In this document: one piece after another, positions 37,429-54,445 of the stretch
Layout: each line of letters starts with the position of its first letter
Numbering within the stretch: position 1 is the first letter of the stretch
Origin: Haematobacter massiliensis
Lineage (GTDB): Bacteria; Pseudomonadota; Alphaproteobacteria; Rhodobacterales; Rhodobacteraceae
Direction of reading: 5' to 3'
Assembly (NCBI RefSeq): GCF_000740795.1
Contig: NZ_JGYG01000004.1
Coordinates: 62,001-126,000, forward strand
DNA length: 64,000 nucleotides
Position numbers and translations under genes: made by a program
Notes under the pieces: model-generated
What the model was told of the DNA's origin: nothing
The model's database searches: none
Seen by the model: the letters and a program-made list of their open reading frames with translations, nothing else

Positions 37429-37452
37429 GGGCATCCCCGGCTTTGTCTGCGG

Positions 37453-38112
37453 CTACGGCGTTAGCGCTTGCATATGCTCCGTGGCGTGCGCGACACCCGC
37501 GTTGATATGCTCCCGCAGAATGGTGACTGCGGCAGCGCTGTCGTGGCGCAAGGCCGCATCCCGCAGTGCCCGGTGTTCCTGCCGAGACGCTTCCGGGCGA
37601 AAGGTCAATGCGATCATCTGATAGCGCAGATATTTGTCGAAGATCTCCGCATGTGTCTGCATCAGCACCCGCGAACCGCATGCGGAGATAAGTGTCTGGT
37701 GAAAGGTCCAGTCGCTTCGCCGCCATGCGGGAATATCCGCCGCATCCCCCGCTTCCAGCCGTTCCTCATGCGCATCGAGCTTGTGATGCGCGGAAAGCAC
37801 CGCGGCCTCCCAGTCCAGCCCGCCCGTCGCAAAGGAGCGAGCGAGCGCATGCTCCTCCAGCAGCAGTCGCAGCGCGGCGATTTCATGCAGGCCGGCACGG
37901 GAAATCGGCGCCACTTCAAAGCCCCGCTGGCCTTCCGCCAGCACGAAACCGTCGGAAGCAAGCCGGGTCAGTGCTTCACGGAGGCTGCTGGTCGCCACAT
38001 CGTAACTCTCCCGCAGTGTCTCCAGCCGGAGCTTCCGCCCCGGCGCCAGCTTGCCCATGATGATTTCGGACCGGAGCCGCGCATAGAGCGTGGGATGGGC
38101 ATCCTCCGTCAT
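37453..38112 (-). CDS. GntR-family (FCD) regulator, tandem copy 1
   Basis: 219 aa. HTH and wing: LETLRESYDVATSSLREALT and EGQRGFEVAPISRAGLHE. The FCD domain has WTFHQTLISACGSRVLMQTH. It overlaps the other GntR gene by 4 bases (ATGA) and lies 24 bases before quiC. Much of its sequence parallels copy 2 at 38109 (IIMGKLAPGRKLRLE against IIFGKLAPGRRLRLE), so the two are a tandem duplication. They may form a heterodimer or sense different intermediates such as quinate and protocatechuate. Confidence 0.92.
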   Translation of the reverse strand: MTEDAHPTLYARLRSEIIMGKLAPGRKLRLETLRESYDVATSSLREALTRLASDGFVLAEGQRGFEVAPISRAGLHEIAALRLLLEEHALARSFATGGLDWEAAVLSAHHKLDAHEERLEAGDAADIPAWRRSDWTFHQTLISACGSRVLMQTHAEIFDKYLRYQMIALTFRPEASRQEHRALRDAALRHDSAAAVTILREHINAGVAHATEHMQALTP

Positions 38113-38789
38113 GCCGCATCTCCCCGCAGCAGGTCATGCTCGACTGTGTAGTCGATACAGGCGCCGATATGCCGGGCGAGGAGCCTCTGCGCCGCGGGCA
38201 CGTCCCTGTCGAGGGCGGCGCGGAGCAACGCGTGATGCTCCTCTGCCGCCACTGCGCCCCGGAACATCACCAGCAGGACCTGATAGCGCAGGAAACGGTC
38301 AAATATCCGGTCATGAGTCGCCAGAAGCTCGCTAGACCCGCATGCTGAGATCAGCGCAACATGGAATTCGCGATCATATCGCTTCCATGTCTCGCTAACG
38401 GTGTGATCCCCGCGCAGCATCCTCTCCTCCATGCGGGAAAGCTTGTGATGCGCTGCCACCACCGAGGCCTCCCACTCCAGATCGCCGTTGGCAAAGGACT
38501 GGGCGACCGCGTGGCACTCCAGCAGGAGACGCATTTCTGCAATGTCTCTCAGATCCGAGATGGAGATGGGCGCAACCTCGAACCCCCGCTGGTTCTCGGC
38601 GACGATCAGCCCCTCCGGCACGAGCCGTGTCAATATCTCACGCAGTGTCGCGATGCTCACCTCGTAGCGCGCGCGCAACTGCTCAAGCCGCAGCCGGCGC
38701 CCAGGTGCCAGCTTTCCGAAGATGATGTCGCTCCGCAGGCGGCGATAGGCGCTTTCCCCTGCGGTCTCTTCCCGGACTCCCGTAGCCAT
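38109..38789 (-). CDS. GntR-family (FCD) regulator, tandem copy 2
   Basis: 226 aa from ATG 38789 (MATGVREETAGESAYRRLRS), chosen because GGGAGAGG precedes it; an ATG six codons upstream has none. HTH and wing: LEQLRARYEVSIATLREILT and ENQRGFEVAPISISDLRD. The FCD domain has REFHVALISACGSSELLATH. First gene of the leftward unit gntR-gntR-quiC, divergent from the TRAP operon, so one or both proteins probably control both directions from the 137-base gap. Confidence 0.91.
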   Translation of the reverse strand: MATGVREETAGESAYRRLRSDIIFGKLAPGRRLRLEQLRARYEVSIATLREILTRLVPEGLIVAENQRGFEVAPISISDLRDIAEMRLLLECHAVAQSFANGDLEWEASVVAAHHKLSRMEERMLRGDHTVSETWKRYDREFHVALISACGSSELLATHDRIFDRFLRYQVLLVMFRGAVAAEEHHALLRAALDRDVPAAQRLLARHIGACIDYTVEHDLLRGDAA

Positions 38790-38887
38790 CCGCCTCTCCC
38801 GCGACATCAGTTAAAACACAAAATATCATATGAAACGAAAATCTCTAGTTGAAAACTGAAATTCCCGATGACATCCTCAGCGCAGGA

Positions 38888-38910
38888 CGAAGCACGGAGG
38901 GGGTGCTTCG
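38888..38910 (+). promoter_or_regulatory. stem-loop just upstream of the TRAP operon ribosome site
   Basis: CGAAGCAC (38888-38895) and GTGCTTCG (38903-38910), a perfect 8-bp stem whose 7-base loop reads GGAGGGG. The true Shine-Dalgarno, AAAGGGAGG, starts three bases later. The loop is itself SD-like, so the structure could tune ribosome access or message stability. Confidence 0.45.
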
Positions 38911-38926
38911 CCAAAGGGAGGACACC

Positions 38927-39916
38927 ATGACCAAAGTGACCCGGCGCGGCTTTGCCGCGCTCGGCGGGGCCATGCTTGCCACGCCATTTCTCGCACGCCT
39001 CAGCCATGCCGCCGAGCAGAGCCGCATCCGCTTTTCCGCCGTGTTCTCCGAGCAGGACATCCGAGCGGGAATGATGAAGCAATTCGCCGAAGGCATCGGC
39101 CCGGACTTCAAGTACGAAGGCTTCTACGGCGGGACATTGTTCAAGCAGGGGACTGAGCTTGTCGCCCTCCAGCGCGGCAACCTGGAGATGTCGAATATCG
39201 CGCCCCAGGACATCTCCAACCAGATCCCGGCATGGTCCATTCTGACCTCCGGTTATCTGTTCCGCGATCCCGACCACTTGCGCAGCTTCTTCACCTCCGA
39301 TGTCGGCGCGGAGACGAAGGCGCTGGCTGAGGGGCAGCTCGGTATCAAGATCCTTGGGCCTACCTTCTATGGCACGCGTCAGGTCGGTCTTCGCGGCAAT
39401 CGCAAGATCGCCACCCCAGCCGACATGGCCGGTGTGAAGCTGCGTATGCCGGGCGGGGAGGCGTGGCAATTCCTGGGGCGTGCGCTTGGCGCAAATCCGA
39501 CCCCCATGGCCTATGCGGAAGTCTATACCGGCCTGCAGACCGGTGCGATCGACGGGCAGGACAATCCATTGCCCAACGTGGACAACATGAAGTTCTACGA
39601 GGTGATGGACCAGATCGTCCTGACGTCGCATCTGGTCGCCTTTGACCTTCTGACCGTCTCTGGCCGGTTCTGGGAGAAGCTGACGGAGGAACAGCGCGCG
39701 GCGTTTCAGACGGCGGCCGACGGTGCCATCGGCTGGAGCACGGAGCAGCACGTCACGCGGGAGGCCGAGATCGCCAAGTCCTTCGCGGAGCGCGGCCTTG
39801 ACGTCTACGCGCCTGATCTGGCCGCCTTCCGCAGCCATGTTCAGAAAGCCTATCTGGAATCCGATCTGGCGAAGGAATGGCCGGCCGGCATGATCGAGCG
39901 GATAGCCGCGGCCTGA
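38927..39916 (+). CDS. dctP: TRAP transporter substrate-binding protein (DctP type)
   Basis: 329 aa from ATG 38927 (MTKVTRRGFAALGGAMLATP). The N terminus is a plausible twin-arginine signal ending SHAAEQ. The mature domain has GGTLFKQGTELVALQRGNLE, the conserved TRAP arginine region LRMPGGEAWQFLGRALGANP, and VYTGLQTGAIDGQDNPLPN, a near-invariant family stretch. It captures an organic acid in the periplasm and hands it to the DctQM membrane proteins. With quinate/shikimate genes on both sides, quinate or shikimate is the likely ligand. Confidence 0.94.
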   Translation: MTKVTRRGFAALGGAMLATPFLARLSHAAEQSRIRFSAVFSEQDIRAGMMKQFAEGIGPDFKYEGFYGGTLFKQGTELVALQRGNLEMSNIAPQDISNQIPAWSILTSGYLFRDPDHLRSFFTSDVGAETKALAEGQLGIKILGPTFYGTRQVGLRGNRKIATPADMAGVKLRMPGGEAWQFLGRALGANPTPMAYAEVYTGLQTGAIDGQDNPLPNVDNMKFYEVMDQIVLTSHLVAFDLLTVSGRFWEKLTEEQRAAFQTAADGAIGWSTEQHVTREAEIAKSFAERGLDVYAPDLAAFRSHVQKAYLESDLAKEWPAGMIERIAAA

Positions 39917-39923
39917 TGCAAAC

Positions 39924-39945
39924 GGCGGCCCCGGGAAGGGCCGCC
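39924..39945 (+). other. intercistronic hairpin between dctP and dctQ
   Basis: GGCGGCCC (39924-39931) and GGGCCGCC (39938-39945), a perfect 8-bp stem with a 6-base loop, right after the binding-protein stop. It is followed by CACTTCCCTTC rather than a T-run, so partial termination or protection of the dctP message is more likely than full termination. Confidence 0.55.
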
Positions 39946-39969
39946 ACTTCCCTTCATCGGAGAATGCCC

Positions 39970-40479
39970 ATGCCGATCCGGCTTCTTCCCTGGCTCCAGC
40001 GCCGTTGCGAGGACATCCTCGTCTTCATGCTCGCGGCGATGTTCATCGTGTTTCTCATTCAGATCGTCTCCCGATATGTCCTCAACATGCCGATGGGCTG
40101 GACGCATGAAACCAGTGTCATTCTATGGATCTGGCTCGTGCTCTTCGGTGCTTCCTTCGTCATCCGTGACAGGGAGGAAATGCGGTTCGACCTCATCTAC
40201 GGAGCAGCTGGCGAGAGAACCCGGCGCTGGATGGCGGCGGTGACCGGAGCGGCGTTGATCGCGATCTTCACGCTCTCGCTGCCCGCGACGTGGGACTATG
40301 TAACCTTCATGAAAGTGGAGCGTACGGCGTATCTGCGGCTCCGCTTCGACTGGCTCTATTCCATCTACATCGTTTTCATGATCGCGATGATTGTCCGTCA
40401 TCTGTGGGTCGGCTGGAGGGCTGTCTTCGGACGGGCGCCGGAAGCTTATGACCCCACGACAGCGAGTTCCGGCGTATGA
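39970..40479 (+). CDS. dctQ: TRAP transporter small permease (DctQ type)
   Basis: 169 aa, MPIRLLPWLQRRCEDILVFM, with four membrane helices: ILVFMLAAMFIVFLIQIVSR, ILWIWLVLFGASFVI, WMAAVTGAALIAIFTLSLPA and YSIYIVFMIAMIVRHLWVG. The family motif RYVLNMPMGWTHE is present. The start at 39970 has GGAGA eight bases upstream; the ATG two codons earlier is too close to it. Its stop overlaps the large permease start by 4 bases. Confidence 0.92.
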   Translation: MPIRLLPWLQRRCEDILVFMLAAMFIVFLIQIVSRYVLNMPMGWTHETSVILWIWLVLFGASFVIRDREEMRFDLIYGAAGERTRRWMAAVTGAALIAIFTLSLPATWDYVTFMKVERTAYLRLRFDWLYSIYIVFMIAMIVRHLWVGWRAVFGRAPEAYDPTTASSGV

Positions 40480-41777
40480 CTTTTGCAAGCCCCTTTTCCC
40501 TCGCCATCACCACGATGACGGCGCTGGCCCTGCTTGGCCTGCCGATCGGCCTGTCGATGATCTGCGGCTCCGTTCTCTATCTCTGGATAACGGGGATGGA
40601 CATGGGCACGGCCGCGGAGCAGTTCCTGAACGGGATGTATTCGAACTACATCATCCTTGCTGTCCCGCTTTTCATCCTTGCCGCGGAAATCATGAATTCC
40701 GGTTCCATGACGGAGCGGCTGCTGCGGTTCTGCAACGTGCTCGTCGGCCATATGCGCGGCGGGCTGGCGCAGATCAACGTCGTGCAGAGCCTGATCTTCG
40801 CCGGCATGTCGGGCTCCGCCATCGCCGATGCCGCCGGATCGGGACGGATGATGCAGAACATGATGACAAGGGAGGGCCGCTATACACCGAGCTACGCGGC
40901 GGCGTTGACCGCGGTGACCGCCGTCATCGGGCCTATCCTGCCGCCGTCCATTCCGATGGTCGTCTATGCGCTCGTCTCCGATGTCTCCATCGGCTACCTG
41001 TTCCTTGCGGGCGTGGTGCCAGGCCTGCTGATGACGGGAATGCAGATGCTTCAGGTCGCCTGGGATGCGAGGCGGCACAACTTTCCCGTGGAGCCGCGCG
41101 TTTCGCTTCGAGAGGTTCCGCGTGTCACCTGGCGGGCGCTGCCCACGCTGCTGATGCCGGTCATCCTGCTCGGCTGTATCTACACAGGCGTGACGACGCC
41201 CACCGAAGCCGCCGCTCTGGCCGCCGCCTATGCGGTGCTGGTCTCCGTGATCCTCTACCGCAGTCTGAGCTGGCGCGAGGGGTACAACGCGGTACTGATC
41301 AGCGCCAAGACTTCCGCCTCCATCGGCATGATGATCGGCGGCGCCCTGGTGTTCAACTACGTGGTGACGATTGAGAACATCCCGGAAACCCTTCGCGCGG
41401 TCCTGACGGGGTGGGAGCTGTCGCCCATCCAGTTCCTGCTCCTCGTCAACGTGCTCCTGCTGCTGCTGGGGTGCGTGCTGGAGGGTACGGCGATCCTCCT
41501 CATCATCGTGCCGGTGTTCATTCCCGCGGCCCAGGCGCTGGGGATCGACCTCGTGCACTTTGGGGTAGTGGTGGTGGTCAATATCATGCTCGGACTCGTG
41601 ACCCCGCCCTATGGCCTGTTGCTCTTCATCATGACCAACATTTCCGGCTCGCCGATGAAGGACATCATCCGCGACTGCCTGCCATTCCTTGGGTGGATGC
41701 TGCTCTGCCTGGCAATCATAACCTTCTTCCCCGACCTCGTGCTGTGGCTGCCGCGTCTCGCGGGCTACGCCGGCTGA
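40476..41777 (+). CDS. dctM: TRAP transporter large permease (DctM type)
   Basis: 433 aa with about twelve hydrophobic segments. Conserved DctM features include FVPLFILAAEIMNSG-like IILAVPLFILAAEIMNSGSM, VVQSLIFAGMSGSAIADAAG, YAAALTAVTAVIGPILPPSI and VGVTTPTEAAALAAAYAV-like TGVTTPTEAAALAAAYAVLV. It carries the Na+-coupled transport path. It starts at 40476 inside the dctQ stop (ATGA) and lies 15 bases before aroQ, so uptake and the first catabolic steps share a message. Confidence 0.94.
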   Translation: MTFASPFSLAITTMTALALLGLPIGLSMICGSVLYLWITGMDMGTAAEQFLNGMYSNYIILAVPLFILAAEIMNSGSMTERLLRFCNVLVGHMRGGLAQINVVQSLIFAGMSGSAIADAAGSGRMMQNMMTREGRYTPSYAAALTAVTAVIGPILPPSIPMVVYALVSDVSIGYLFLAGVVPGLLMTGMQMLQVAWDARRHNFPVEPRVSLREVPRVTWRALPTLLMPVILLGCIYTGVTTPTEAAALAAAYAVLVSVILYRSLSWREGYNAVLISAKTSASIGMMIGGALVFNYVVTIENIPETLRAVLTGWELSPIQFLLLVNVLLLLLGCVLEGTAILLIIVPVFIPAAQALGIDLVHFGVVVVVNIMLGLVTPPYGLLLFIMTNISGSPMKDIIRDCLPFLGWMLLCLAIITFFPDLVLWLPRLAGYAG

Positions 41778-41792
41778 ACCGAGAGTTTCTCC

Positions 41793-42233
41793 ATGACCAT
41801 CTGGATACTGAACGGACCCAACCTCAACCGGCTGGGAAAGCGCGAGCCGGAGATTTACGGCCGCACGACCTTGGCGGAAGTGGAAACCTGGGCGCGAGAG
41901 GCGGCCGGCGACACGCCCCTTCGGTTCCATCAGTCGAATGCCGAATACGAGATCATCGACTGGATTCATGAGGCCATCGACACGGGCGGACGCGGGATTG
42001 TCATCAATCCCGCAGGGCTCACCTTTACATCCGTGCCCGTGATGGATGCGCTGAAGATGTTCCCCGGCCCGATCATCGAGCTCCACATCTCCAACATTCA
42101 CCGGCGCGAAGCCATCTATCACCGATCGCTGGTTTCACCGGTTGCGACGGCGGTCGTCGCGGGGCTTGGCGCGCGCGGTTATGTCCACGCTGTCCATGCG
42201 CTTGCAGAGATGATCGGGCAGGATGCGCCATGA
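41793..42233 (+). CDS. aroQ: type II 3-dehydroquinate dehydratase
   Basis: 146 aa, normal size. It interconverts 3-dehydroquinate and 3-dehydroshikimate. NGPNLNRLGKREPEIYG carries the catalytic Tyr and Arg of the flexible lid; HQSNAEYEIIDWIHEA and GIVINPAGLTFTSV are family motifs, and ELHISNIHRRE has the catalytic His. The placement between a TRAP transporter and a quinate/shikimate dehydrogenase indicates a catabolic copy rather than the biosynthetic one, equivalent to QuiB/QsuC. It overlaps the next gene by 4 bases. Confidence 0.95.
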   Translation: MTIWILNGPNLNRLGKREPEIYGRTTLAEVETWAREAAGDTPLRFHQSNAEYEIIDWIHEAIDTGGRGIVINPAGLTFTSVPVMDALKMFPGPIIELHISNIHRREAIYHRSLVSPVATAVVAGLGARGYVHAVHALAEMIGQDAP

Positions 42234-43087
42234 CCACACCGATCCGGGTGGGGCTGATCGGTGCCGGCATCGGCAGATCCCGCACACCCCTTTTGCATAT
42301 GGCGGAGGCGGCGGCGCAGGGTTTCCGGCTCCGGTATGATCTCCTCGATATCGAGACGCAGACCGGTGACAAACCCTCGTTGGAGCGCCTCATCGCCGAG
42401 GCGGAGGCGCAGGGCTTTGCCGGGCTCAACATCACCCATCCGTTCAAGCAGGCGGTATTGCCCCTGCTGAACGAGCTGTCCGAAGACGCTGCGGCGCTTG
42501 GTGCGGTCAACACCGTGGTGTTCGGGGAGAGAGGGAGAACAGGCCACAACACCGACTGGTCGGGATTTCTTGAGGGGTTTCGCCAGGCGCTGCCCGACGT
42601 GCCGCGCACCGTCGTTCTGCAACTGGGTGCCGGCGGCGCGGGTGCCGCGGTCGCCTATGCGGCGCAGTCGTTGAAAGTGGAGCGGCTTCTCCTCTCCGAC
42701 ATGGATATCGGGAGGGCGGAGGCTTTGGCCGCGCGCATGAATGCCGTCGCCGGTCGGCCCTATGTCCACGTCGTGACCGACCTCCCGGCGGCGATGCAGG
42801 ATGCGGAAGGACTGATCAACACCACGCCGATGGGGATGGCGGCGCATCCCGGCCTGCCGCTGCCCGCCGAGCTGCTAGCGCCGCGTCACTGGGTGGCGGA
42901 TGTCGTGTATTTCCCGCTCGTTACTCCGCTGCTCGCCCTTGCTCGCGAGCGGGGCTGCCGGACCATGGATGGGAGTGGCATGGCCGTGTTTCAGGCGGTC
43001 GGCGCCTTCCGGTTGTTCACGGGAGAGGACGCCGATCCGCAGCGGATGCACGATACCTTTCAGGCCGCGACCCGAGTCACTGCCTGA
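42230..43087 (+). CDS. quinate/shikimate dehydrogenase, QsuD-like
   Basis: 285 aa, shikimate dehydrogenase fold. The substrate domain has GRSRTPLLHMAEAAAQGFRL, LNITHPFKQAVLPLLNELSE (catalytic Lys) and AVNTVVFG, then HNTDWSGF. The Rossmann motif is QLGAGGAGAAVAYA, followed by an acidic DMDIGRA at the strand end, which favours NAD over NADP. The closest relative I recognise is Corynebacterium QsuD (LSRTPAMHEAEG, TGHNTDVSGF), which oxidises quinate and shikimate with NAD. With AroQ and QuiC it completes quinate to protocatechuate. Confidence 0.92.
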   Translation: MTTPIRVGLIGAGIGRSRTPLLHMAEAAAQGFRLRYDLLDIETQTGDKPSLERLIAEAEAQGFAGLNITHPFKQAVLPLLNELSEDAAALGAVNTVVFGERGRTGHNTDWSGFLEGFRQALPDVPRTVVLQLGAGGAGAAVAYAAQSLKVERLLLSDMDIGRAEALAARMNAVAGRPYVHVVTDLPAAMQDAEGLINTTPMGMAAHPGLPLPAELLAPRHWVADVVYFPLVTPLLALARERGCRTMDGSGMAVFQAVGAFRLFTGEDADPQRMHDTFQAATRVTA

Positions 43088-43098
43088 GAGGCGTGCCG

Positions 43099-44112
43099 TC
43101 AGATCGTCGCGACGGGCGTCACGGGCGAGCCTACTGCGCCTGGCATGTAGAGCGGCGGCGCAGTCAGAAAGACCGCATGCCGACCGCGCTCTGCCAATGC
43201 GGTCGCCAGATCGCGCAGATACCATAGTTCCGCCAGAGGCAGGCCGATCTTGAACAGGCAGTGATGGTGAAGGGGCAGCCGCAGGCAGCAGTTCTCCCGG
43301 TCTGCATGGGCGTCCTCGACCGCGTAGTTGTCGGCGGCGATGGCCGAGATGCGGCTTTCCGTGATCCAGTCGTGAAGCGTCTCGTCCGCACCGTCCAGAA
43401 CCGCGCCCGTCCGCTCCAGTCGCGCCGGATCCGGGCTGGCCTGCATGTCCAGAAGCGCTTCTGCAAAGCCGGTCCGCAGCAGGAGAATATCGCCTTCACG
43501 CACCTCCACCCCCTGCGCCCGCATCGCGTCATGAAGGGCGGCGCGCCCTACGACAGTGCGTTCCATGCCGAAGTGGCGGGCGAGATCAATCAGCACGCCG
43601 CGCCCCTGGACCGGGGTCTTTGCCATCTCCGTCACCGATAGCCGGTTTGCAAAGGAGGTGTTCGGGCCGTGCGCATCCGGCCCAAGGATGTCCCGCCCGG
43701 CAAGGTGGCCGTTGTAATAACAGCGCTCGGCGACACCGTCGCCGTCTGCGTCAAACAGCGCGCCGACATGCGCAAGCGAGTCCCATTGGGTCGAGAACTG
43801 CATGGACATCAGAACCTGATCGTCGCTGATCACGTCCTGCAGCAGCGGATCGACATTGCTTAGCGGGAAATTGACATATGGCGTGTCGCCCGAACATGTC
43901 GGGCCGAGACGCGGCGGTTTGCGGCGGGGGTTGAGAGAGATCGGCCCGGGCACATCCAGCGGCAGCGACAGACAATAGGCCCGGCCCTCGCGAATTTCGG
44001 CAGCCGCAGCGATACGATGCGCGTCCGTGATGTAATTCAGCGTTCCCAACTGATCGTCGGGTCCGAAATCTCCCCAGTTGGATTTCTCCGGTCGATTCAC
44101 CCAATTCGGCAT
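43099..44112 (-). CDS. cyclase-family metal hydrolase
   Basis: 337 aa, MPNWVNRPEKSNWGDFGPDD at 44112, with GGAGGAGTGACT before it; the long upstream extension is untranslated. It is the long subgroup of PF04199 with the metal motif STQWDSLAHVGALFD in place of the HxGTHxD of the shorter protein at 15201. Then come GRGVLIDLARHFG, EGDILLLRTGF and SAIAADNYAVED. These enzymes hydrolyse cyclic amides, lactones or isatin-like rings. It is convergent with the QsuD-like gene (11-base gap) and divergent from the AtoE-like transporter operon. Confidence 0.9.
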   Translation of the reverse strand: MPNWVNRPEKSNWGDFGPDDQLGTLNYITDAHRIAAAAEIREGRAYCLSLPLDVPGPISLNPRRKPPRLGPTCSGDTPYVNFPLSNVDPLLQDVISDDQVLMSMQFSTQWDSLAHVGALFDADGDGVAERCYYNGHLAGRDILGPDAHGPNTSFANRLSVTEMAKTPVQGRGVLIDLARHFGMERTVVGRAALHDAMRAQGVEVREGDILLLRTGFAEALLDMQASPDPARLERTGAVLDGADETLHDWITESRISAIAADNYAVEDAHADRENCCLRLPLHHHCLFKIGLPLAELWYLRDLATALAERGRHAVFLTAPPLYMPGAVGSPVTPVATI

Positions 44113-44227
44113 AGTCACTCCTCCGTCTGACGATCCCTGATGGCCATCTGGCAACGCGATCGCAAGGGGAAGACTTCTCGGCCCCGGATCGCTTCCTCCG
44201 CCCAGAAAGACATCTGAAACTTTCGCA

Positions 44228-44239
44228 AACATATATGTT
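44228..44239. promoter_or_regulatory. 12-bp palindrome in the cyclase / atoE divergent promoter
   Basis: AACATATATGTT, a perfect palindrome in the 213-base gap between divergent genes, about 90 bases before the transporter start. It is a likely operator; the nearby GntR pair or the LysR at 47797 are candidates. AT-rich surroundings suit promoters for both directions. Confidence 0.5.
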
Positions 44240-44325
44240 GACATCATAACTGACAATGACTGATTAGCTTTGAGCATCATTGGAGAAGCCTGGCGCCCCT
44301 ACCCGGTGCCTGGGAGGAGGGAAAA

Positions 44326-45663
44326 TTGACAGCAGTCGCCAACTTTTTCACGCGTATCGTCAACCGCTACATGCCGGACCCACTGGTGGTAGCGATTATC
44401 CTCACCGGACTGACGCTCGTCTTTGCGATGATCTGGGAGGGAACGAATTTCGTCGATGCCACGCGCTACTGGGGCGACGGATTCTGGAACCTGCTGGCCT
44501 TCACGATGCAGATGACCGTCATTCTGCTCGCAGGCTACATCCTCGCCAAGACGCCGCTGGTGGACCGGCTGATGGATCGGGTCGTCGCCGGCATCCACAC
44601 ACCTCAGGCAGCCGTCATCGCCGCCACGCTTTTCGGCGGGATCGGCAGCTGGCTCAACTGGGGTTTCGGTCTGGTGCTGGGCACGCTGATTGCCCAGAAG
44701 TTGGGCCAGAAGGTCAAGGGCCTTCACTATCCGCTCGTGATTGCTGCCGGTTACTCCGGCTTTGCCGTCTATGGTGTGGGGCTTTCGGGTTCGGTGCCGT
44801 TGCTCATCAACACGCCCGGTCATTTCCTTGAAAGCTCGATCGGGCTGATCCCGCTCAGCGAGACGATCTTTTCCCCCTATCTCATCGTGATGAACCTCAT
44901 CATCATCGTCACGCTGCCGCTGTTCAACGCCATGCTGCATCCGAAGCCCGGTGAGAAGGTCATCGAGGCAAAGCGCATCGCCCCCGCCGCGACCGAGAAC
45001 TTGGAACAGCCCCAGAAATACGACACCCTCGCCGACCGGCTCAACAATTCGCCGGTGATCGGCATCGGGATGGGAGTGTTCGGTCTGATCTACGCCGTGC
45101 TCTACCTGCTTGAAGGCGGCGGCATCACGCTGAACTTCGTGAACCTGCTGTTCCTGTTCCTCGGGATCGCACTCTTCGTCACGCCCAACCGCTTTCTCGC
45201 CGCCGTGAATGACGGGGTGCGCGTCGTGGGGGGCATCATCATCCAGTATCCGTTCTATGCCGGTATTCTGGCAATTCTCGCCGGGTCCGGGCTGGTTGTC
45301 ACCTTCTCGAACTGGTTCGTGTCCTTCTCCAGTGCAGAAACGCTGCCATTGTGGTCGTTCATCTCGGCGGGGCTGATCAACATCTTCGTGCCCTCGGGCG
45401 GTGGGCAGTGGGTCATCCAGGGGCCGGTGATGACGGAGGCCGCACTTCAGCTTGGCGCTTCCATCCCCGCAACCGCCCTCGCCGTCCAGATCGGGGACCA
45501 ATGGACCAACATGGTGCAACCCTTCTGGCTTCTTCCTGCGCTGGCGATTTCCGGGCTGAAGCTCAAGGATATCATGGGCTACATGGTGCTGATCCTGTTC
45601 TACCTCGGTGTGATTTTCGGCGTCACCTGCGGCATCTGGGGCGTCATGGGGGCGGCTGCCTGA
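44326..45663 (+). CDS. atoE: AtoE-type short-chain fatty acid transporter
   Basis: 445 aa. The start is a TTG at 44326, directed by GGGAGGAGGG four bases upstream, giving LTAVANFFTRIVNRYMPDPL (initiator read as Met). About eleven membrane helices; family motifs include NLLAFTMQMTVILLAGY, GGIGSWLNWGFGLVLGT, AGYSGFAVYGVGLSGSVPL and FVPSGGGQWVIQGPV. AtoE proteins import short-chain carboxylates such as acetoacetate or butyrate. Here it leads an operon with YciI-like, isomerase-like and SDR genes, so the substrate may be a ring-derived acid. Confidence 0.9.
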   Translation: MTAVANFFTRIVNRYMPDPLVVAIILTGLTLVFAMIWEGTNFVDATRYWGDGFWNLLAFTMQMTVILLAGYILAKTPLVDRLMDRVVAGIHTPQAAVIAATLFGGIGSWLNWGFGLVLGTLIAQKLGQKVKGLHYPLVIAAGYSGFAVYGVGLSGSVPLLINTPGHFLESSIGLIPLSETIFSPYLIVMNLIIIVTLPLFNAMLHPKPGEKVIEAKRIAPAATENLEQPQKYDTLADRLNNSPVIGIGMGVFGLIYAVLYLLEGGGITLNFVNLLFLFLGIALFVTPNRFLAAVNDGVRVVGGIIIQYPFYAGILAILAGSGLVVTFSNWFVSFSSAETLPLWSFISAGLINIFVPSGGGQWVIQGPVMTEAALQLGASIPATALAVQIGDQWTNMVQPFWLLPALAISGLKLKDIMGYMVLILFYLGVIFGVTCGIWGVMGAAA

Positions 45664-45968
45664 TGCCGTGGATGGTAGAAACCTACGACAGGCCGGGCGC
45701 GGGGGATCTGCGCCTCCGCCTCCGGCCCGAACACCTCGCCTATCTGGAGGAGAACAAGGCTCTTCTCCTTGCCTGCGGCGCCAAACTCGATGACGCGGGC
45801 GAGGCTGCGAGCGGCGGCGTCTATCTGCTAGATGTGGAAAGCCGCGATGCCGCAGAAGCCTTCATCGCCGCCGATCCCTTCTTTTGGGGCGGGCTGTTCG
45901 AGACCGTCTTCGTCACCCGCTGGCGCAAGGCCTATCTCGACGGACGGAACACATTGCAGGAGGGCTGA
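45663..45968 (+). CDS. YciI-like (YCII-related) protein
   Basis: 101 aa, MPWMVETYDRPGAGDLRLRL. The alpha/beta dimeric-barrel fold is seen in HLAYLEENKALLLACGAKLD, VYLLDVESRDAAEAFIAADP, FFWGGLFETVFVTRWRKAYL, with the family His and Asp. YCII relatives include dechlorinases and small hydrolases, most uncharacterised. The ATG at 45663 shares a base with the transporter stop. Its close packing implies a role in processing whatever that transporter brings in. Confidence 0.85.
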   Translation: MPWMVETYDRPGAGDLRLRLRPEHLAYLEENKALLLACGAKLDDAGEAASGGVYLLDVESRDAAEAFIAADPFFWGGLFETVFVTRWRKAYLDGRNTLQEG

Positions 45969-45969
45969 C

Positions 45970-46260
45970 ATGCTCTATCAGGTCGAAATGACGGTGAACA
46001 TTCCCCAGGATATGGAGGAGGACACCGTTGCCGGCATCAAGGCGAGAGAGAAGGCCTATTCTCAGGATCTGCAGCGGCAGGGTATCTGGAGGCATATCTG
46101 GCGCGTCGCCGGAAGCTATGCAAATGTCAGCATCCTTGATTGCCGCGACAATGCCCATCTGCACGAGGTGCTGACGGCGCTGCCGCTCTATCCCTACATG
46201 GATATCTCCGTAACCCCGCTTTGCCGGCATCCCTCCTCCGTCCGGGAGGGCGATCTGTGA
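45970..46260 (+). CDS. muconolactone delta-isomerase family protein
   Basis: 96 aa, the normal size of CatC. MLYQVEMTVNIPQDM then GIKAREKAYSQDLQRQGIWR and WRVAGSYANVSILDCRDNAH; LHEVLTALPLYPYMDISVTP ends the domain. The family moves the double bond of muconolactone to give the enol-lactone. No catA or catB accompanies it, so it probably acts on another lactone. It starts 1 base after the YciI-like gene and overlaps the SDR start by one base. Confidence 0.88.
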   Translation: MLYQVEMTVNIPQDMEEDTVAGIKAREKAYSQDLQRQGIWRHIWRVAGSYANVSILDCRDNAHLHEVLTALPLYPYMDISVTPLCRHPSSVREGDL

Positions 46261-46973
46261 TGGGGTTCCAACGCCGTGCTGCCGTCATAACCGGCGGAAG
46301 CGGGGGCATCGGCGCGGCAATCACCGCGAGGCTGAAGCACGACGGTTTTCAGACGGTCGTCCTCGACGTCACGGAGCCGGAGGCGACCGTGGATGCCTTC
46401 GTTCGGGTGGACCTTTCCGATCTGGACGCGGCCCGTTCGGCCGCCGCAGAGATCGCGAACCGCTTTGCCGTCACCTGCCTTGTCAACAACGTGGGCGTGG
46501 TCATGCCAGCCCCGCTGGAGGCGGTGCGGGCAGAGGATATGGACCGGCTGATGAACATCAACCTGCGCCCCTCCATCGTCTGCGCGCAGGCTTTTCTTCC
46601 GGGGATGAAAGCGGCGGGCGGCGGGCGCATCGTGATGAACACAAGCCGGGTGACGCTCGGCAAGGAGCTTCGCACGCTCTATTCCGCGACCAAAGGGGCA
46701 GCACAGTCCATGGCGCGGACATGGGCGCTGGAGCTCGGCCCGCATGGCATCACGGTCAACTGCGTCGCTCCGGGCCCTATCGGCACCGACGCCTTCTGGC
46801 GGAACAATCCCCCCGACGCGCCGCGAACGCAGGAGATCGTCAATCACATCCCGGTCCGCCGCATCGGCACGGGGGAGGATGTGGCAAACGCCGTCTCCTT
46901 CTTCTGCGCGCCGGACGCAGGGTTCGTCACCGGACAGACGCTGTTCGTCTGTGGCGGCGTGACCGTCGGTTAG
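46260..46973 (+). CDS. short-chain dehydrogenase/reductase (SDR)
   Basis: 237 aa. The cofactor motif is TGGSGGIGAA, with LVNNVGVVMPAP (NNxG-type) and catalytic YSATK near residue 143; the Ser is in MNTSRVTLG. The end VTGQTLFVCGGVTVG is the usual SDR tail. The acidic VLDVTEPEA after the second strand suggests NAD. The ATG at 46260 overlaps the previous stop by one base. It is the last gene of the operon, followed by a bidirectional terminator. It probably oxidises a hydroxyl of the pathway intermediate. Confidence 0.92.
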   Translation: MGFQRRAAVITGGSGGIGAAITARLKHDGFQTVVLDVTEPEATVDAFVRVDLSDLDAARSAAAEIANRFAVTCLVNNVGVVMPAPLEAVRAEDMDRLMNINLRPSIVCAQAFLPGMKAAGGGRIVMNTSRVTLGKELRTLYSATKGAAQSMARTWALELGPHGITVNCVAPGPIGTDAFWRNNPPDAPRTQEIVNHIPVRRIGTGEDVANAVSFFCAPDAGFVTGQTLFVCGGVTVG

Positions 46974-46993: not shown

Positions 46994-47016
46994 AAAGGGG
47001 CCGTAAGGCCCCTTTT
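46994..47016. terminator. bidirectional terminator
   Basis: AAAGGGGCC (46994-47002), GTAA loop, GGCCCCTTT (47007-47015) then one more T. A 9-bp stem with a GNRA tetraloop, A-tract on one side and T-tract on the other, between the convergent SDR and pcaD genes. It should stop transcription both ways. Confidence 0.85.
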
Positions 47017-47018: not shown

Positions 47019-47795
47019 TCAGGCCAGATGCTTTTGCAGCAGCGCGGCGACTTCGGCGGGCTGCTCGACGCAGGGCAGGTGTCCCGCGCGCGCGATTTCC
47101 ACATAGGTCGCGTTTGGGATCGCTTCAGCCATTCCCTTGACCAAAGCGGGCGGTGTGGAGGCGTCATCCGCTCCGGCGATTACCAGCGTGGGCTGGGTGA
47201 TACGCGCGAGATCGGCGGTATAATCGGCATCGCGGATCGCCTCGGAGACCTGGCAATAGCCGTCGGCGGGTGTCCGCTCCAGCATGGCCCGCCACATGGC
47301 GAAATCCTCGGTCGCCTCATAACCGGGAGCGAACCAGCGTTGCAGGATGGCAGCGCTCACGGAGGGAATGCCATTGGCTCGGATCGCTTCGATCCGGGGG
47401 TTCCAGATGTCCGGCGAGCCGATCTTCGCGGCGGTATCGGACAGCACGAGATGGCTCATGCCCTCCGGCCGCCGAACGGCGAGCCGCTGCATGATCAGCC
47501 CCCCGACCGACAGGCCGACGCCCGCGAAACGCCGGATGCCATGGTGGTCGAGCAACGTCTCCGTATCATCCGCCATCGTCTCGATGGTAAGCACCGGACG
47601 CGCCACGCTCAGCCCATGACCACGCTTGTCCTGCCGCAACAAGCCCCAGCTTTCCGGAAGCAGGGCAACGACCCGGTCCCAGACTCGCAGATCGGTACCA
47701 AGCGAATTGGCAAAGACAACCGTCGGTGCATCGCCCTGAGGCGCGCGCCAGCCGTGGTGGATGCCATCGACAGCGGTAAAGAACTCTTGGCGCAA
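47019..47795 (-). CDS. pcaD: 3-oxoadipate enol-lactonase
   Basis: 258 aa, hydrolysing the enol-lactone to 3-oxoadipate in the beta-ketoadipate pathway. The alpha/beta-hydrolase features are HGWRAPQGDAPTVVFANSLG, the oxyanion-side VVFANSLGTDLRVWD, nucleophile elbow GVGLSVGGLI, acid ADDASTPPA and catalytic His in ARAGHLPCVEQP. The start is a TTG at 47795 with AAGGAGA five bases before; upstream residues lie inside the LysR gene. It follows the LysR stop by one base. No other pca gene is in view. Confidence 0.9.
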   Translation of the reverse strand: MRQEFFTAVDGIHHGWRAPQGDAPTVVFANSLGTDLRVWDRVVALLPESWGLLRQDKRGHGLSVARPVLTIETMADDTETLLDHHGIRRFAGVGLSVGGLIMQRLAVRRPEGMSHLVLSDTAAKIGSPDIWNPRIEAIRANGIPSVSAAILQRWFAPGYEATEDFAMWRAMLERTPADGYCQVSEAIRDADYTADLARITQPTLVIAGADDASTPPALVKGMAEAIPNATYVEIARAGHLPCVEQPAEVAALLQKHLA

Positions 47796-47796: not shown

Positions 47797-48702
47797 TCAG
47801 TCTCCTTCAGCGGGATCGCTCCCGTCCAGACAGGACAGGAGCAGGTGCAGCGGGCGGCTTTCGCTGTCCGCACGATAGACGAGCGAGATATTGGCAGTAA
47901 CGCCGGTCTCCGTCAGCGGGCGGTAAACGACCCCGCTCATCTGGATGTTGCGGATGGCTTCGGGCACGATGGCCACGCCCAACCCCGCCGCGACGAGGCT
48001 GACGATGGAGGCAAACTGCGGCGAGCGCTGCACGATGTTCGGCGTGATCCCCGCGACAGCGCAAGCCGCGTGCATCGCCGCCGAAAACCCCGTCTGCGGC
48101 GGAAGATGCGTGGCGATGAATGGATCGCGCGACAACTCGGCCAGCGCGACGCATTGTTCTGTCGCGAGGCGGTGGTCGGAGGGCAGGGCAATCCACAAGT
48201 TTTCTTCGCAGAGCGTCCTGCTCGCCACATTTTCCGGCATGTCGGCATAGGGCAACCGCACGATACCCGCATCGAGATTTCCTGCGGCGATCTCCGGGAT
48301 CTGCTGGTCGAGGTCCATGAGGCGCAGCGTCAGCACCGTTTCGGGCGCACATGCGCGATAGTTACGGACAAGCTGCGTCAGCACCCCGTTGAAGGCCGCC
48401 GCGCCGATATAGCCAAGCGCCAGTTCCCCCATCATGCCGCGCCCGGCGCGAAGTGCGATGTCTTCCGCTCGCCGGGCCTGTCGCAGAACGGCGCGCGCTT
48501 CGGGCAGGATCAGCGCACCGGCCGGCGCAAGACGCACCCGTCGGCGGTTCCGATCAAAGAGCACGGCGCCGACGACTTCTTCCATCTGCTGCAGTTGAAG
48601 CGTGAGCTGCGGCTGCGAGATGTTCAGCCGCACCGCCGCATGGCCAAAGTGCAGTTCCTCTGCCAGAACGACAAGAAGTTCGTAGTGTTTGAGCGTGAGC
48701 AC
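47797..48702 (-). CDS. LysR-family transcriptional regulator
   Basis: 301 aa. The helix-turn-helix is HFGHAAVRLNISQPQLTLQL followed by LFDRNRRRVRLAPAGALILP. The effector domain has GELALGYIGAAAFNGVLTQL, DAGIVRLPYADMPEN and GLGVAIVPEAIRN, like BenM/CatR-type regulators that sense muconate or aromatic acids. The start is a GTG at 48702 with a poor ribosome site. It is upstream of, and nearly touches, pcaD, an unusual co-directional arrangement for LysR genes, so it probably controls its own operon. Confidence 0.88.
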   Translation of the reverse strand: MLTLKHYELLVVLAEELHFGHAAVRLNISQPQLTLQLQQMEEVVGAVLFDRNRRRVRLAPAGALILPEARAVLRQARRAEDIALRAGRGMMGELALGYIGAAAFNGVLTQLVRNYRACAPETVLTLRLMDLDQQIPEIAAGNLDAGIVRLPYADMPENVASRTLCEENLWIALPSDHRLATEQCVALAELSRDPFIATHLPPQTGFSAAMHAACAVAGITPNIVQRSPQFASIVSLVAAGLGVAIVPEAIRNIQMSGVVYRPLTETGVTANISLVYRADSESRPLHLLLSCLDGSDPAEGD

Positions 48703-48800: not shown

Positions 48801-50411
48801 TTAGCCCTCCGTGATGGACCGAAGGCTCCGCGCCACATCCTGAAGCGCAAGAAAAGCTGCGTATCGCCTGCTGTGAAGAGCCGCGATATCGTCACCCGCT
48901 GGCCAGAACGTCTCTCCGGTTGCGGAAAGCCGCGACATGCCGTCCCGCATGTCGTGGACCAGACCGCCCGCCATGGCGCCGAGGATTGCGGAGCCGAGCA
49001 GCACCGGTTCATCCGATTTCGCGGAAAGCACCGGCAGGCCCGTCGTATCGGCGAGAAGCTGACGCACGAGCGGAAGTTGTCCCGCGCCGCCGGAGATCGT
49101 GATCCGCTCCACATGTGCGCCGGCCTGCTCCTGTGTCTCGATGATCTGCCGCAGCCCGTAGCCGATGCCGCACAGCCCCGCGATATAAAGTGCCGCGAGG
49201 CTGTCGATATCCCTGTCCATGCCCAGACCGGCGATGACCGCCCGCGCATGGGGATCGGCGAAGGGTGCGCGGTTCCCGAGGAACTCCGGAACCACATGCA
49301 GACCATCAGCCAGCAGGACGGCCTCAGAGGAAGAAGCCGCCCGGCGCATAGCTCTTCCTGCGAGGAAAGCGGGCAGGCTCTCTCCCTCTGCCCGGGCCAT
49401 CTCCGCTGCCTCCTGCGTGGCGGGATGGGAAGCGATCAGCTGCTCGATAGCGGCGCCGGCTGCGGATTGCCCGCCTTCGTTCAACCACATGCCCGGGACC
49501 ATCGCAGAGAAGTATGGCCCCCAGACACCGGGTACGAAAACGGGTTTCGCCGTGGTCGTCATGGTGCAGGATGAAGTCCCAAACACATAGCCGAGATTGG
49601 CCACAGGGTCGCCCTCGGCCCCGACAGTGCCTATGCCGCCCGCATGGGCGTCGATCAGGCCAGCGCCCACCGGCGTCCCGGGAAGAAGGCCAAGTTCCGA
49701 CGCCGCCCTCTCCGTCAGGCCTTCGCCGAGTGCGGTGCCCGGCTCCAGGATCCGGGTGCCTATGCGGACGAACTGCTCCTCTGCCAACTGGCCCAATCCG
49801 ATCTGGTGGAAGTAGCTCGCATCCCAGCGGCCCTCATGCGCGAGATATGTCCATTTGCATGTCACCGTGCAGGTGGAGCGGGCGATGTCCCCGGTCGCGC
49901 GCCATGTGAGGAAATCGGCGAGATCGAAGAACGCCCACGCGGCGCCGAACACTTCCGGCCGGTTCTCTCGCAGCCAGAGGAGTTTCGGCGTCTCCATCTC
50001 CGGCGAGATGCGACCGCCGACATAGTCAAGAACCGGATGGCCTTCGGCATTTATGCGTTCGGCCTGACCGATGGCCCGGTGATCCATCCAGACGATGATG
50101 TCGCGGGCAGGATCTTCGGAGGGCCCGACAGGCAGGGATGCGCCGCTTTCACCCAGAACGACAAGCGAGCATGTCGCGTCGAACCCGATGCCGAGCACGT
50201 CCTGCGGTACAAGAGCCGCGCGCCGCATCGCTTCCCGCACGGAAAGGCAGACGGCGTTCCAGATATCCGCGCTCGACTGCTCCACGATGCCGCCCGGCTC
50301 TCGCCACAGGCGTATGGGGTGGCTCGCCGAGGCGAGTGCCCGCCCGGTAAGATCGAAAAGCCCCGCCCGTGCGCTCCCCGTGCCGACATCGATACCGAGC
50401 ACCGCCTGCAT
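48801..50411 (-). CDS. FGGY-family pentulose kinase, probable D-ribulokinase
   Basis: 536 aa, ATP-dependent kinase phosphorylating a ketopentose. The N-terminal GIDVGTGSARAGLFDLTGRA is the phosphate loop; GIGFDATCSLVVLGE, IIVWMDHRAIGQAERIN, YVGGRISPEMETPKLLWLRE and CTVTCKWTYLAHEGRWD are features of the FGGY/ribulokinase (YpCarbK-like) group. The catalytic Asp lies in GAGLIDAHAGGIGTVG and the ATP loop in TISGGAGQLPLVRQLLA. It lies one base after the ribitol dehydrogenase gene, so D-ribulose is the natural substrate, giving D-ribulose 5-phosphate. Confidence 0.9.
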   Translation of the reverse strand: MQAVLGIDVGTGSARAGLFDLTGRALASASHPIRLWREPGGIVEQSSADIWNAVCLSVREAMRRAALVPQDVLGIGFDATCSLVVLGESGASLPVGPSEDPARDIIVWMDHRAIGQAERINAEGHPVLDYVGGRISPEMETPKLLWLRENRPEVFGAAWAFFDLADFLTWRATGDIARSTCTVTCKWTYLAHEGRWDASYFHQIGLGQLAEEQFVRIGTRILEPGTALGEGLTERAASELGLLPGTPVGAGLIDAHAGGIGTVGAEGDPVANLGYVFGTSSCTMTTTAKPVFVPGVWGPYFSAMVPGMWLNEGGQSAAGAAIEQLIASHPATQEAAEMARAEGESLPAFLAGRAMRRAASSSEAVLLADGLHVVPEFLGNRAPFADPHARAVIAGLGMDRDIDSLAALYIAGLCGIGYGLRQIIETQEQAGAHVERITISGGAGQLPLVRQLLADTTGLPVLSAKSDEPVLLGSAILGAMAGGLVHDMRDGMSRLSATGETFWPAGDDIAALHSRRYAAFLALQDVARSLRSITEG

Positions 50412-50412
50412 G

Positions 50413-51141
50413 TTACAGATCCACGCTGTTGGGCAGGATTACAAGATCGCGCACCACCACTCCCCGCGGGCGGGTGAGCATGAAGACGACGGCCTCCGCC
50501 ACCTCTTTGGGCTGCATGAGAGAGCCGTTGGCCAGCGCCTCCTCCATCTTCGCCTTCGGCCAGTCATCCAGAAGAGCGGTGACGACTGGGCCGGGCAGCA
50601 CCGCGCCGACCCGAATTCCATGCGGCGCAACCTGGCGACGAGTTGTGTGGACGAATGCCTGAACAGCAAATTTTGATGCGGTGTAGATCGGTTCCCACAC
50701 GACCGGCACGACACCTGCGACGGAAGATGTGAAGAGGATATCGCCGGTTCTGCGCTCGATCATATAGGGCAGCACCGCGTGAACGGAACGGAAGGCTGCA
50801 TTGATGTTGAGGTTCAGCATCCGGTCCCAGACATCCGGATCTCCCTCCGCCACGGGACCGCCGACATAGGCACCGGCATTGGCGTGAAAGATGTCAAGCG
50901 AACCCGCGAGGTCGAGGATCCGCGGAAGCAGGCCCGAGACCTGTGGGCCGTCCAGAAGATCGACGGTAAGGGGCAATGCCGCTGGCCCGATCTCGGCACA
51001 GAGCGTTTTCAGCCGCTCCTCCGCCCGGTCGATCAGCACCACTGTCGCCCCTTGGGCCACCAGCGTCCGGGCGCATTCCAGCCCGATCCCAGAGGCCGCA
51101 CCGGTGATTGCGGCAACCTTGCCGTTGAGCGATTCCGCCAT
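50413..51141 (-). CDS. rbtD: ribitol 2-dehydrogenase
   Basis: 242-aa SDR oxidising ribitol to D-ribulose with NAD. It matches remembered Klebsiella RbtD phrase for phrase: [60 protein letters not shown] and [20 protein letters not shown], with [12 protein letters not shown] and VILPNSVDL at the end. The catalytic triad is the Ser of [10 protein letters not shown] and YTASK. The start at 51141 follows the permease stop by 12 bases. This identifies the whole cassette as ribitol use. Confidence 0.94.
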
Positions 51142-51153
51142 GTTTCCGTCCCC

Positions 51154-52407
51154 TTACGCGCGGCCGTGGCTGACGCGCGACTGCCGCGCGAGACTGTCCA
51201 CGATAACCGCGATGGCCAGCACGCCGCCCGTGATCATGTAACGCAGCGAAGAACTGAGGTTGAGAAGTGTCAGGCCGTTGGAGATCGCCTGGATGACGAT
51301 GATCCCCAGAAGCGCCGAATAGGCGCTCCCCCGTCCGCCAAAGAGAGAGGTCCCGCCGATTACCGCCGCAGCGATCGCGTTGAGGTTGACGTCGCCGGTG
51401 CCCGCCTGCTGGCTTGCCGAGGCGAGCCGCGCGGCCGAAAGGACACCCCCCAGCGCTGCCAGCGTGGAACAGAGAACGAAGGCCGAAATGGTGATCCGCC
51501 GGACATCAATGCCCGCCCGCCGCGCGGCCTCCGCATTCCCGCCCGTCGCGAACATGGACCGCCCCCATTTCGTACGGGTGAGCGCGTAATCCATCACCAC
51601 GACGAGAGCGACGAACAACACGAACATGTAGGGAATGCCGCGGCCCTGATTGAGGTACCACACCGCGAACTCGATCCCGAGGGTCAGCGCCGCAGCCTTG
51701 AGGATCAGGACGCTGAGGCCGGGATAGGAGAGGTTCGCGGCCGCGCGACGCTGCATCGTCCTGAGGCCGAGCAGAAGTACAGCCAGCCCCGGGAGCGCGC
51801 CCAGTATGTAGGAGAGCCAGTCCGGCATCACGAGGATCTGGCCAAAGCGCACGAGGGGCGACGCATAGGGCAGGTTGATCGACCCGCTCGGACCCAGAAT
51901 GTAGAGCTGCAACCCGAGCAGTGCCAGCAGTCCGGCGAGAGTGGAGACGAAGCTCGGCATCCCGAAGCGGTTGAGCAGCACGCCGTAGATCAGACCCACC
52001 AGCGCCCCGAAGGCCAGAGCGGCCAGAATGGCAAGCGGCAATGAGACGCCCATGTTCACCCAGAGCACGCCGACGATGGCGGAGGCCAGCCCGCTCATCG
52101 ACCCGACGGACAGGTCGATCTGCCCGAGCATCAGGACAGCCACGATACCGAGTGAAATGAACCCGACCGTCGCACAGTCGAAGAGCAGGTTCACGAGATT
52201 GTTGGGGGCCAGGAAGACCGGGTTCAGCACACTGAACACGATCGAGATCACGATCAGGCCGACGATGACGGGGAGCATGCCGAGATCACCCGAGCGCACC
52301 CGGTCGATAAATCCGGTGAAGGCGCCACCCAACCCCTCGTCCCGGCGCAAACGGCTGTCGGAGCGGTCAAGACGCGCGGCGTCGGTTTTGCTGTCGGGAA
52401 GGGTCAT
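51154..52407 (-). CDS. sugar/polyol ABC transporter permease (XylH/RbsC type)
   Basis: 417 aa, long like XylH rather than RbsC. About 55 soluble N-terminal residues precede the first helix. Membrane segments include VIVGLIVISIVFSVLNPVFL, TVGFISLGIVAVLMLGQIDL (with the family LSVGSM turn) and ALGGVLSAARLASASQQAGT. GGTSLFGGRGSAYSALLGII is the conserved loop near the ATPase. It overlaps the ATPase gene by 4 bases. It should import ribitol with its ATPase and binding protein. Confidence 0.92.
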   Translation of the reverse strand: MTLPDSKTDAARLDRSDSRLRRDEGLGGAFTGFIDRVRSGDLGMLPVIVGLIVISIVFSVLNPVFLAPNNLVNLLFDCATVGFISLGIVAVLMLGQIDLSVGSMSGLASAIVGVLWVNMGVSLPLAILAALAFGALVGLIYGVLLNRFGMPSFVSTLAGLLALLGLQLYILGPSGSINLPYASPLVRFGQILVMPDWLSYILGALPGLAVLLLGLRTMQRRAAANLSYPGLSVLILKAAALTLGIEFAVWYLNQGRGIPYMFVLFVALVVVMDYALTRTKWGRSMFATGGNAEAARRAGIDVRRITISAFVLCSTLAALGGVLSAARLASASQQAGTGDVNLNAIAAAVIGGTSLFGGRGSAYSALLGIIVIQAISNGLTLLNLSSSLRYMITGGVLAIAVIVDSLARQSRVSHGRA

Positions 52408-53249: not shown

Positions 53250-53277
53250 GTGAGATTACCCTTTCCTGTAAGCTGCT

Positions 53278-53301
53278 CCCGTCCCGTCATCGCGGGACGG
53301 G
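53278..53301 (-). other. intercistronic hairpin after the ribitol binding-protein gene
   Basis: CCCGTCCCG (53278-53286) and CGGGACGGG (53293-53301), a perfect 9-bp stem with a 6-base loop, in the 61-base gap before the ATPase gene. No T-run, so read-through or 3'-end protection is likely. Confidence 0.55.
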
Positions 53302-53310
53302 GGCGAGCCA

Positions 53311-54375: not shown

Positions 54376-54445
54376 CTCTTTCCTCCCAGCGAGATGTCGT
54401 AGCTGCTCCGGCATCGCAACTCACCGCGTGCCTGATTCTCCATCA

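Follow-up and report, generated by a model that had tools for sequence, protein, structure and literature searches.

The gene cluster

We analysed a 64,000-nucleotide stretch of Haematobacter massiliensis DNA (assembly GCF_000740795.1, contig NZ_JGYG01000004.1, positions 62,001-126,000; hereafter the window, whose own positions are used as coordinates), and in it a gene cluster built around a muconolactone delta-isomerase of the CatC family (MIase, PF02426; 45970-46260, + strand). The MIase gene belongs to a + strand operon (44326-46973). It is preceded by genes for an AtoE-type short-chain fatty acid transporter with a TTG start (44326-45663; PF02667, 430.9 bits vs. a cut-off of 27) and a YciI family protein (45663-45968; PF03795, 70 vs. 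24 bits), and is followed by a short-chain dehydrogenase/reductase (SDR) oxidoreductase gene (46260-46973; PF13561, adh_short_C2, 151.1 vs. 27 bits). A gene for a cyclase-family hydrolase (43099-44112, - strand; PF04199, 56.1 vs. 23.1 bits), here termed the cyclase, is divergent from this operon. An earlier note on this DNA had placed these five genes here, and the gene calls and family matches agree with it. The note had also described the operon as joined by one-base overlaps: two exist, between AtoE and YciI at base 45663 and between MIase and SDR at base 46260, but YciI and MIase are separated by one base.

The interval considered in the earlier note ended 45 bases before a gene for PcaD, 3-oxoadipate enol-lactonase (47019-47795, - strand), so that this gene and the adjacent gene for a LysR-type regulator (47797-48702, - strand; LysR domains) were missed. 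SDR and PcaD are convergent on a 45-base gap in which an inverted repeat flanked by A and T runs (46994-47015, without strand assignment) was read from the sequence. It is likely the shared terminator of both genes. A promoter-like site (TTGACA, 17 bases, TGATTA; 44238-44266, + strand) precedes atoE, and the pattern TTGAC(A/G)-17-TGAT was present upstream of atoE in all 11 loci compared. The LysR protein, presumably the regulator of the cluster, gave its best NCBIfam scores with AlsR and other LysR regulators including CatM and BenM, all under cut-off. At the corresponding locus, plasmid pOT1-1 of H. massiliensis agrees with the window in gene order and gene calls, including the TTG start, and its cyclase is 100% identical to that of the window.

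Conservation of the neighborhood

MIase relatives were collected from one genome per species (84,980 species), and the best 80 of 505 stretches with a relative were compared. Sixty-three of these MIases lie beside catA and catB and 14 in an AtoE/YciI/cyclase set, with none in both; the other 3, on truncated contigs, have either catA or catB. An even phylum sample of 398 genomes had an MIase match in 33 genomes, at 36 places. Of the 34 whose neighbors were viewed, 28 had a catB-like gene nearby and 5 belonged to the module (the window included); none combined the two, and one weak 23-bit match was in neither context. In a family sample, MIase was detected in 11 of 295 genomes; it lay in a catA/catB context in 2 of these, and 5 carried the module. 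The samples are thin, and the counts do not capture the true spread of the module.

We then tabulated 23 loci from alpha-, beta- and gammaproteobacteria with wide flanks, using identity limits of our own choosing. Cyclase and AtoE were present in all 23, YciI and MIase in 22 each, SDR and PcaD in 19 each, LysR in 15 (orthologue at 40% or more, the window included), a gene for a 3-hydroxyacyl-CoA-dehydrogenase-like enzyme (HAD) in 14, pcaIJ and pcaF in 4, and 3-oxoadipate:acetyl-CoA acetyltransferase (BKACE) in 1. Neither catA nor catB was found near the module in any of these 23 loci. Since the genes recur together across three proteobacterial classes and in several gene orders, their clustering reflects more than chance, and the loose co-occurrence that the earlier note had named as a refutation was not what the survey returned.

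Two sub-sets recur. Cupriavidus (L103, L106) and G551 (L177) have AtoE-YciI-cyclase-MIase-PcaD and no SDR or HAD, and both sub-sets are joined in Caballeronia SBC1 (L108) and in most Rhodobacterales loci; the locus with the other sub-set, in Burkholderia stagnalis, is described below. In Roseomonas mucosa AD1 (L098) a rearranged module lies on a 97-kb plasmid with IS21-type istA/istB on both sides; the flanks and the plasmid location suggest transfer. A gene of this locus that bears the annotation FAD-dependent oxidoreductase has 61-67% identity to module HADs, most of which share 45-67% identity. The Caballeronia HAD scored over the PRK06129 cut-off, and that of Qingshengfaniella over none of those listed.

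Catechol and protocatechuate genes outside the cluster

The statement of the earlier note that the isomerase occurs without catA/catB extends from the locus to the whole Haematobacter genome, in which MIase is single-copy. Only two PF00775 matches were detected, adjacent on contig C7 amid pcaC, BKACE and pcaB-like genes (pcaC and pcaB being named from translations and position). Because the pair lies among pcaC, BKACE and pcaB, it represents pcaHG and not catA; thus, the PF00775 search found no catechol 1,2-dioxygenase gene in this genome. A search with TIGR02534 found no muconate/chloromuconate cycloisomerase (catB) there, the best score being 61.8 vs. 334.95 bits. Among the 17 module genome entries, catB over cut-off was found outside the module in 6 and not in the other 11. 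Two entries (G048 and G300) evidently represent the same assembly, as their coordinates are identical; 10 of 16 genomes are thus catB-less.

The absence of catA and catB from Haematobacter would also be expected if the cluster were what is left of a cat operon after loss of these two genes. We regard this as highly improbable: the set is kept in many lineages and several orders (the 23 loci), and 6 of the 17 module genomes have catB elsewhere as well, an outcome that decay would not yield.

The pca operon on contig C7 (L165, 8580-12561) runs pcaC-pcaH-pcaG-BKACE-pcaB, in which BKACE immediately follows pcaHG; pcaF is on a different contig. No PcaD over cut-off was found on contig C7; G001 and G002 have one beside pcaHG, and one also lies close to pcaHG in G048 (=G300), G096 and G305. 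The idea that the module PcaD is the sole PcaD serving the protocatechuate route of this genome was rejected, since contig C12 encodes another PcaD that scored over cut-off.

Identities of the enzymes and the transporter

The MIase scored over the NCBI equivalog cut-off (TIGR03221, 149.2 vs. 130.6 bits), and its alignment to the solved enzyme 1mli spans residues 1-95. It is therefore predicted to act as a muconolactone delta-isomerase. PcaD likewise scored over the equivalog cut-off (TIGR02427, 289.8 vs. 255.85 bits) and has a GLSVG nucleophile motif.

The cyclase has a single solved relative at E up to 0.01, 5ibz (E 9.6e-47). According to PMC5341072, 5ibz is protein MGS0169, whose metal motif is a variant, Q-x3-Q-x-D-x3-H, that is also present in the Pseudomonas reinekei MT1 trans-dienelactone hydrolase, and the PF04199 members described there are metal-dependent hydrolases. 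The window cyclase has this variant (QFSTQWDSLAH, residue 105), which was found in 24 of 24 module cyclase rows and in 9 of 11 other rows (one being a copy of a module row). Since it also occurs in the non-module rows, the motif marks a subfamily and not the module. These features point to a lactonase resembling trans-dienelactone hydrolase.

Of the 23 loci, all of which have the cyclase, 22 also have the MIase, and Cupriavidus and G551 keep both with only AtoE, YciI and PcaD. The one step lacking for a route from muconate is its cycloisomerisation. The cyclase might accordingly replace CatB and lactonise cis,cis-muconate (or an isomer) taken up from outside, giving muconolactone; the operon would then be a complete muconate pathway with a cyclase unrelated to CatB. 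If so, the AtoE-type carrier and YciI would have dedicated muconate/muconolactone functions, and the cluster would be a second, independently evolved entry to the beta-ketoadipate pathway. However, the B. stagnalis locus has the cyclase with SDR and HAD and no MIase, AtoE is a monocarboxylate-type carrier, and the motif is of the lactone hydrolase type in a family whose members described in PMC5341072 are hydrolases that depend on a metal. We consider a CatB replacement improbable.

AtoE has a full-length PF02667 (SCFA_trans) match. We take it to be a monocarboxylate-type carrier, and it may import a lactone acid. YciI scored under all seven NCBIfam YciI cut-offs shown; its nearest solved relative is the TftG dehydrochlorinase, and it could be a small isomerase or lyase. 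YciI was rejected as a marker of the module because the family is broad, as seen in the class sample described below. The SDR has a YSATK (YxxxK) motif, was under cut-off with each of the 25 NCBIfam families shown, and may be a hydroxy-acid dehydrogenase.

A search for HAD in 4 of the 17 genomes spoke against its relocation in Haematobacter, the best matches being 35% (Haematobacter) and 36% (G001). A related arrangement, BKACE-HAD-SDR-LysR without MIase or cyclase, lies on a Sulfitobacter dubius plasmid (L099, 8123-11560). Its SDR is 61% identical to that of the window, and the group is perhaps a separate 3-hydroxy-acid module.

Trees of MIase and cyclase

On the MIase tree (95 columns, with many weak forks) module and cat-operon MIases interleave. 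The module label switches three times, and well-supported branches force at least two of these switches. The MIases of Vreelandella and Sulfitobacter indolifex are grouped (91/81) with cat-operon enzymes, those of Halomonas included. This suggests that MIases were exchanged between module and cat operons and hence catalyze the same reaction.

On the cyclase tree, the G680 and G524 enzymes are sister (97/95) to a Caballeronia cyclase encoded between a dioxygenase and a cycloisomerase. That cluster is annotated as dioxygenase, cyclase, enolase-like protein and maleylacetate reductase. Its cycloisomerase scored 332.6 vs. 334.95 bits, the dioxygenase was under cut-offs, and the reductase is named by annotation. 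This context fits a lactonase role for the cyclase, short of proof.

The Caballeronia cluster and the YciI relationship to TftG would suit a pathway for halogenated muconolactones, in which YciI and MIase eliminate halide and the cyclase acts on dienelactones. The MIase also matches 5-chloromuconolactone dehalogenases, albeit after 1mli, and is closer to muconolactone isomerase (E 2.9e-30 with 1mli vs. 2e-26 with the dehalogenase). Moreover, no maleylacetate reductase is annotated in the module regions whose annotations were examined, and PcaD and PcaIJF match unhalogenated 3-oxoadipate. A halogenated substrate is in our view even less probable than replacement of CatB.

Links to 3-oxoadipate

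Two genomes (G680 and G524) have one same-strand run pcaIJ-pcaF-pcaD-cyclase-yciI-SDR-atoE-MIase. The pcaI-, pcaJ-, pcaF- and pcaD-type genes of G524 scored over their cut-offs (the G680 genes were left out of the scan). In Stappia, a pcaJ-type gene and a thiolase that passed the pcaF cut-off, both over cut-offs, adjoin the cyclase, and Celeribacter has pcaIJ- and pcaF-like genes near the module. The BKACE in the S. indolifex cluster scored 468.4 vs. 350 for 3-oxoadipate:acetyl-CoA acetyltransferase (NF053568). Among the 17 module genomes, the acetyltransferase was over cut-off in 13 and pcaF in 16; predicted routes from 3-oxoadipate to central metabolism are thus present in module genomes.

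Because pcaIJ-pcaF-pcaD occur within module runs and the acetyltransferase within another cluster, the end product of the module is very probably 3-oxoadipate, as judged from family matches. The earlier note had held that no known pathway accommodates the set. That view does not stand: PcaD lies 45 bases downstream, some relatives have pcaIJ-pcaF or the acetyltransferase in or next to the cluster, and the MIase is an equivalog match, which together place the set in the lower beta-ketoadipate pathway. The suggestion of a lactone or cyclic keto-acid pathway, made in the same note, is well supported.

Alternatively, the cluster might repair an overflow. Muconolactone would then be a side product of the protocatechuate branch and a dead end without catC, MIase and an extra PcaD would rescue it, and the cyclase, SDR and HAD would clear by-products. 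The protocatechuate branch (pcaHG) exists in Haematobacter, all 17 module genomes searched contain PF00775 genes, and at least two PcaD over cut-off were found in 11 of the 17 genome entries. A title cited in PMC6063337 reports muconolactone production via the protocatechuate 3,4-pathway. Against repair, an imported substrate is indicated by the dedicated transporter, which all 23 loci have, and by the inclusion of pcaIJ-pcaF in the G680/G524 run, and the module is unattached to the pca operon in Haematobacter. We judge overflow repair unlikely, although it is the strongest of the alternatives.

A proposed module for muconolactone-type lactone acids

The reading we favor, and hold to be moderately probable, is a LysR-regulated catabolic module that takes up small muconolactone-type gamma-lactone acids and converts them to 3-oxoadipate, with entry below catA/catB. 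AtoE would import the lactone as a monocarboxylate. The MIase would convert muconolactone to 3-oxoadipate enol-lactone and PcaD would convert this to 3-oxoadipate, two steps that the equivalog matches support; 3-oxoadipate could then be used via PcaIJ/PcaF or the acetyltransferase, encoded elsewhere in Haematobacter. The cyclase would be a metal-dependent lactonase opening lactones that the MIase cannot use, candidate substrates being the other muconolactone enantiomer, a dienelactone or the saturated lactone of 3-hydroxyadipate. The SDR, with HAD in 14 of 23 loci, would oxidise a 3-hydroxy acid to 3-oxoadipate or an unsaturated analogue. YciI may serve as a second small isomerase or lyase, and LysR may sense substrate or product.

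Two arms would thus meet at 3-oxoadipate: MIase and PcaD for muconolactone, and cyclase with SDR/HAD for lactones opening to a 3-hydroxy acid. This scheme is the simplest reading of the recurring sub-sets. Haematobacter is without HAD, and the second arm there would therefore depend on SDR.

Several observations weigh against the proposal. (i) Its membership is uneven: PcaD was not seen in 4 of 23 loci and SDR not in 4 of 23, the 15-kb B. stagnalis locus (L107) has cyclase-SDR-HAD-AtoE and no MIase or YciI, and HAD is missing in Haematobacter, the best match in its genome having 35% identity. (ii) Two family assignments fall short, AtoE scoring 427.7 vs. 575.75 bits with TIGR00366 and YciI narrowly missing the NF009503 cut-off (140.9 vs. 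145). (iii) Cyclase and YciI are not confined to the module. The module cyclases do not form one clade (the label switches four times, at least three of these being forced and one being the copied row), cyclase relatives at ~45-55% occur in clusters that lack the remainder of the module, and YciI relatives were found in 18 of 385 genomes of a class sample, 17 of them without module genes in the fetched flanks. (iv) No upstream enzyme names the substrate; the starting compound is deduced from the end product and the monocarboxylate-type carrier.

Comparison with known systems

The cluster resembles the catechol branch (catBCA, catD/pcaD, pcaIJF) in the MIase and PcaD steps, the end at 3-oxoadipate and LysR regulation, and module MIases are ~70% identical to cat-operon MIases. 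It differs in that the Haematobacter genome is without catA/catB, in that AtoE, YciI, cyclase and SDR are added, and in that the two contexts are never combined among the best 80 of 505 MIase loci. Its cyclase shares the family and the variant motif with the P. reinekei MT1 trans-dienelactone hydrolase; the gene context differs, and the likeness lies in the motif as described for the MT1 enzyme. AtoE matches PF02667 as do known short-chain fatty acid transporters, but with a sub-cut-off TIGR00366 score and in a lactone-catabolism rather than an acetoacetate context. YciI shares PF03795 with TftG but is under the NCBIfam YciI cut-offs; a YciI gene also occurs in hydroquinone/maleylacetate clusters, according to a figure legend of PMC6063337. 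BKACE, found within the S. indolifex cluster and after the Haematobacter pcaHG, offers another way on from 3-oxoadipate, but it lies outside the Haematobacter cluster.

In the open-licence literature, searched for muconolactone (isomerase) together with BKACE, cyclase, AtoE/SCFA transporter or YciI, no description of this cluster or of a characterised operon of these five genes was found, and nothing was found there on bacterial degradation of the 3-hydroxyadipate lactone. One paper that names both a short-chain fatty acid transporter and muconolactone isomerase gives the two genes as separate entries. The accessible text of a paper on aromatics in C. metallidurans CH34 names catC in a figure legend only. 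Sulfitobacter D7, which grows on benzoate, has all catechol-branch genes except catC, according to PMC9873259.

The entry point and the accessory set appear to be new; the component families and the end of the beta-ketoadipate pathway are known. Muconolactone is usually regarded only as an intermediate inside catechol-cleaving cells. If the proposal is right, lactone acids of this type would be traded or scavenged in nature by bacteria without catA/catB. The module offers roles for three poorly assigned families (AtoE-type carriers, YciI and cyclase-like hydrolases), and a catC annotation by itself would be no proof of catechol degradation. It would also be of interest for muconate or muconolactone production, which calls for importers and sinks of these compounds.

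Flanking regions of the window

The region 35548-43087 holds a quinate/shikimate-type set: a QuiC-like protein (under the NCBIfam cut-off), two GntR-type regulators, a TRAP transporter, a type II dehydroquinate dehydratase and a shikimate dehydrogenase. This set would feed the protocatechuate branch. A functional link of the module to it was rejected, as the adjacency was seen in Haematobacter only (L016, L096) and no aroE, aroQ or quiC match was present at the other module loci viewed.

The segment 32001-36000 has a G+C content of ~0.53, compared with 0.60-0.69 in the other 2-kb windows. A 549-aa open reading frame in it (33182-34831), annotated as hypothetical in pOT1-1, had no Pfam or NCBIfam match at the limits used. 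On the other side of the cluster, an FGGY pentulose kinase, a sugar ABC transporter and an SDR are encoded at 48801-54414, and a LacI regulator is annotated farther along in pOT1-1. These genes appear to form a sugar or polyol operon that has no relation to the cluster.

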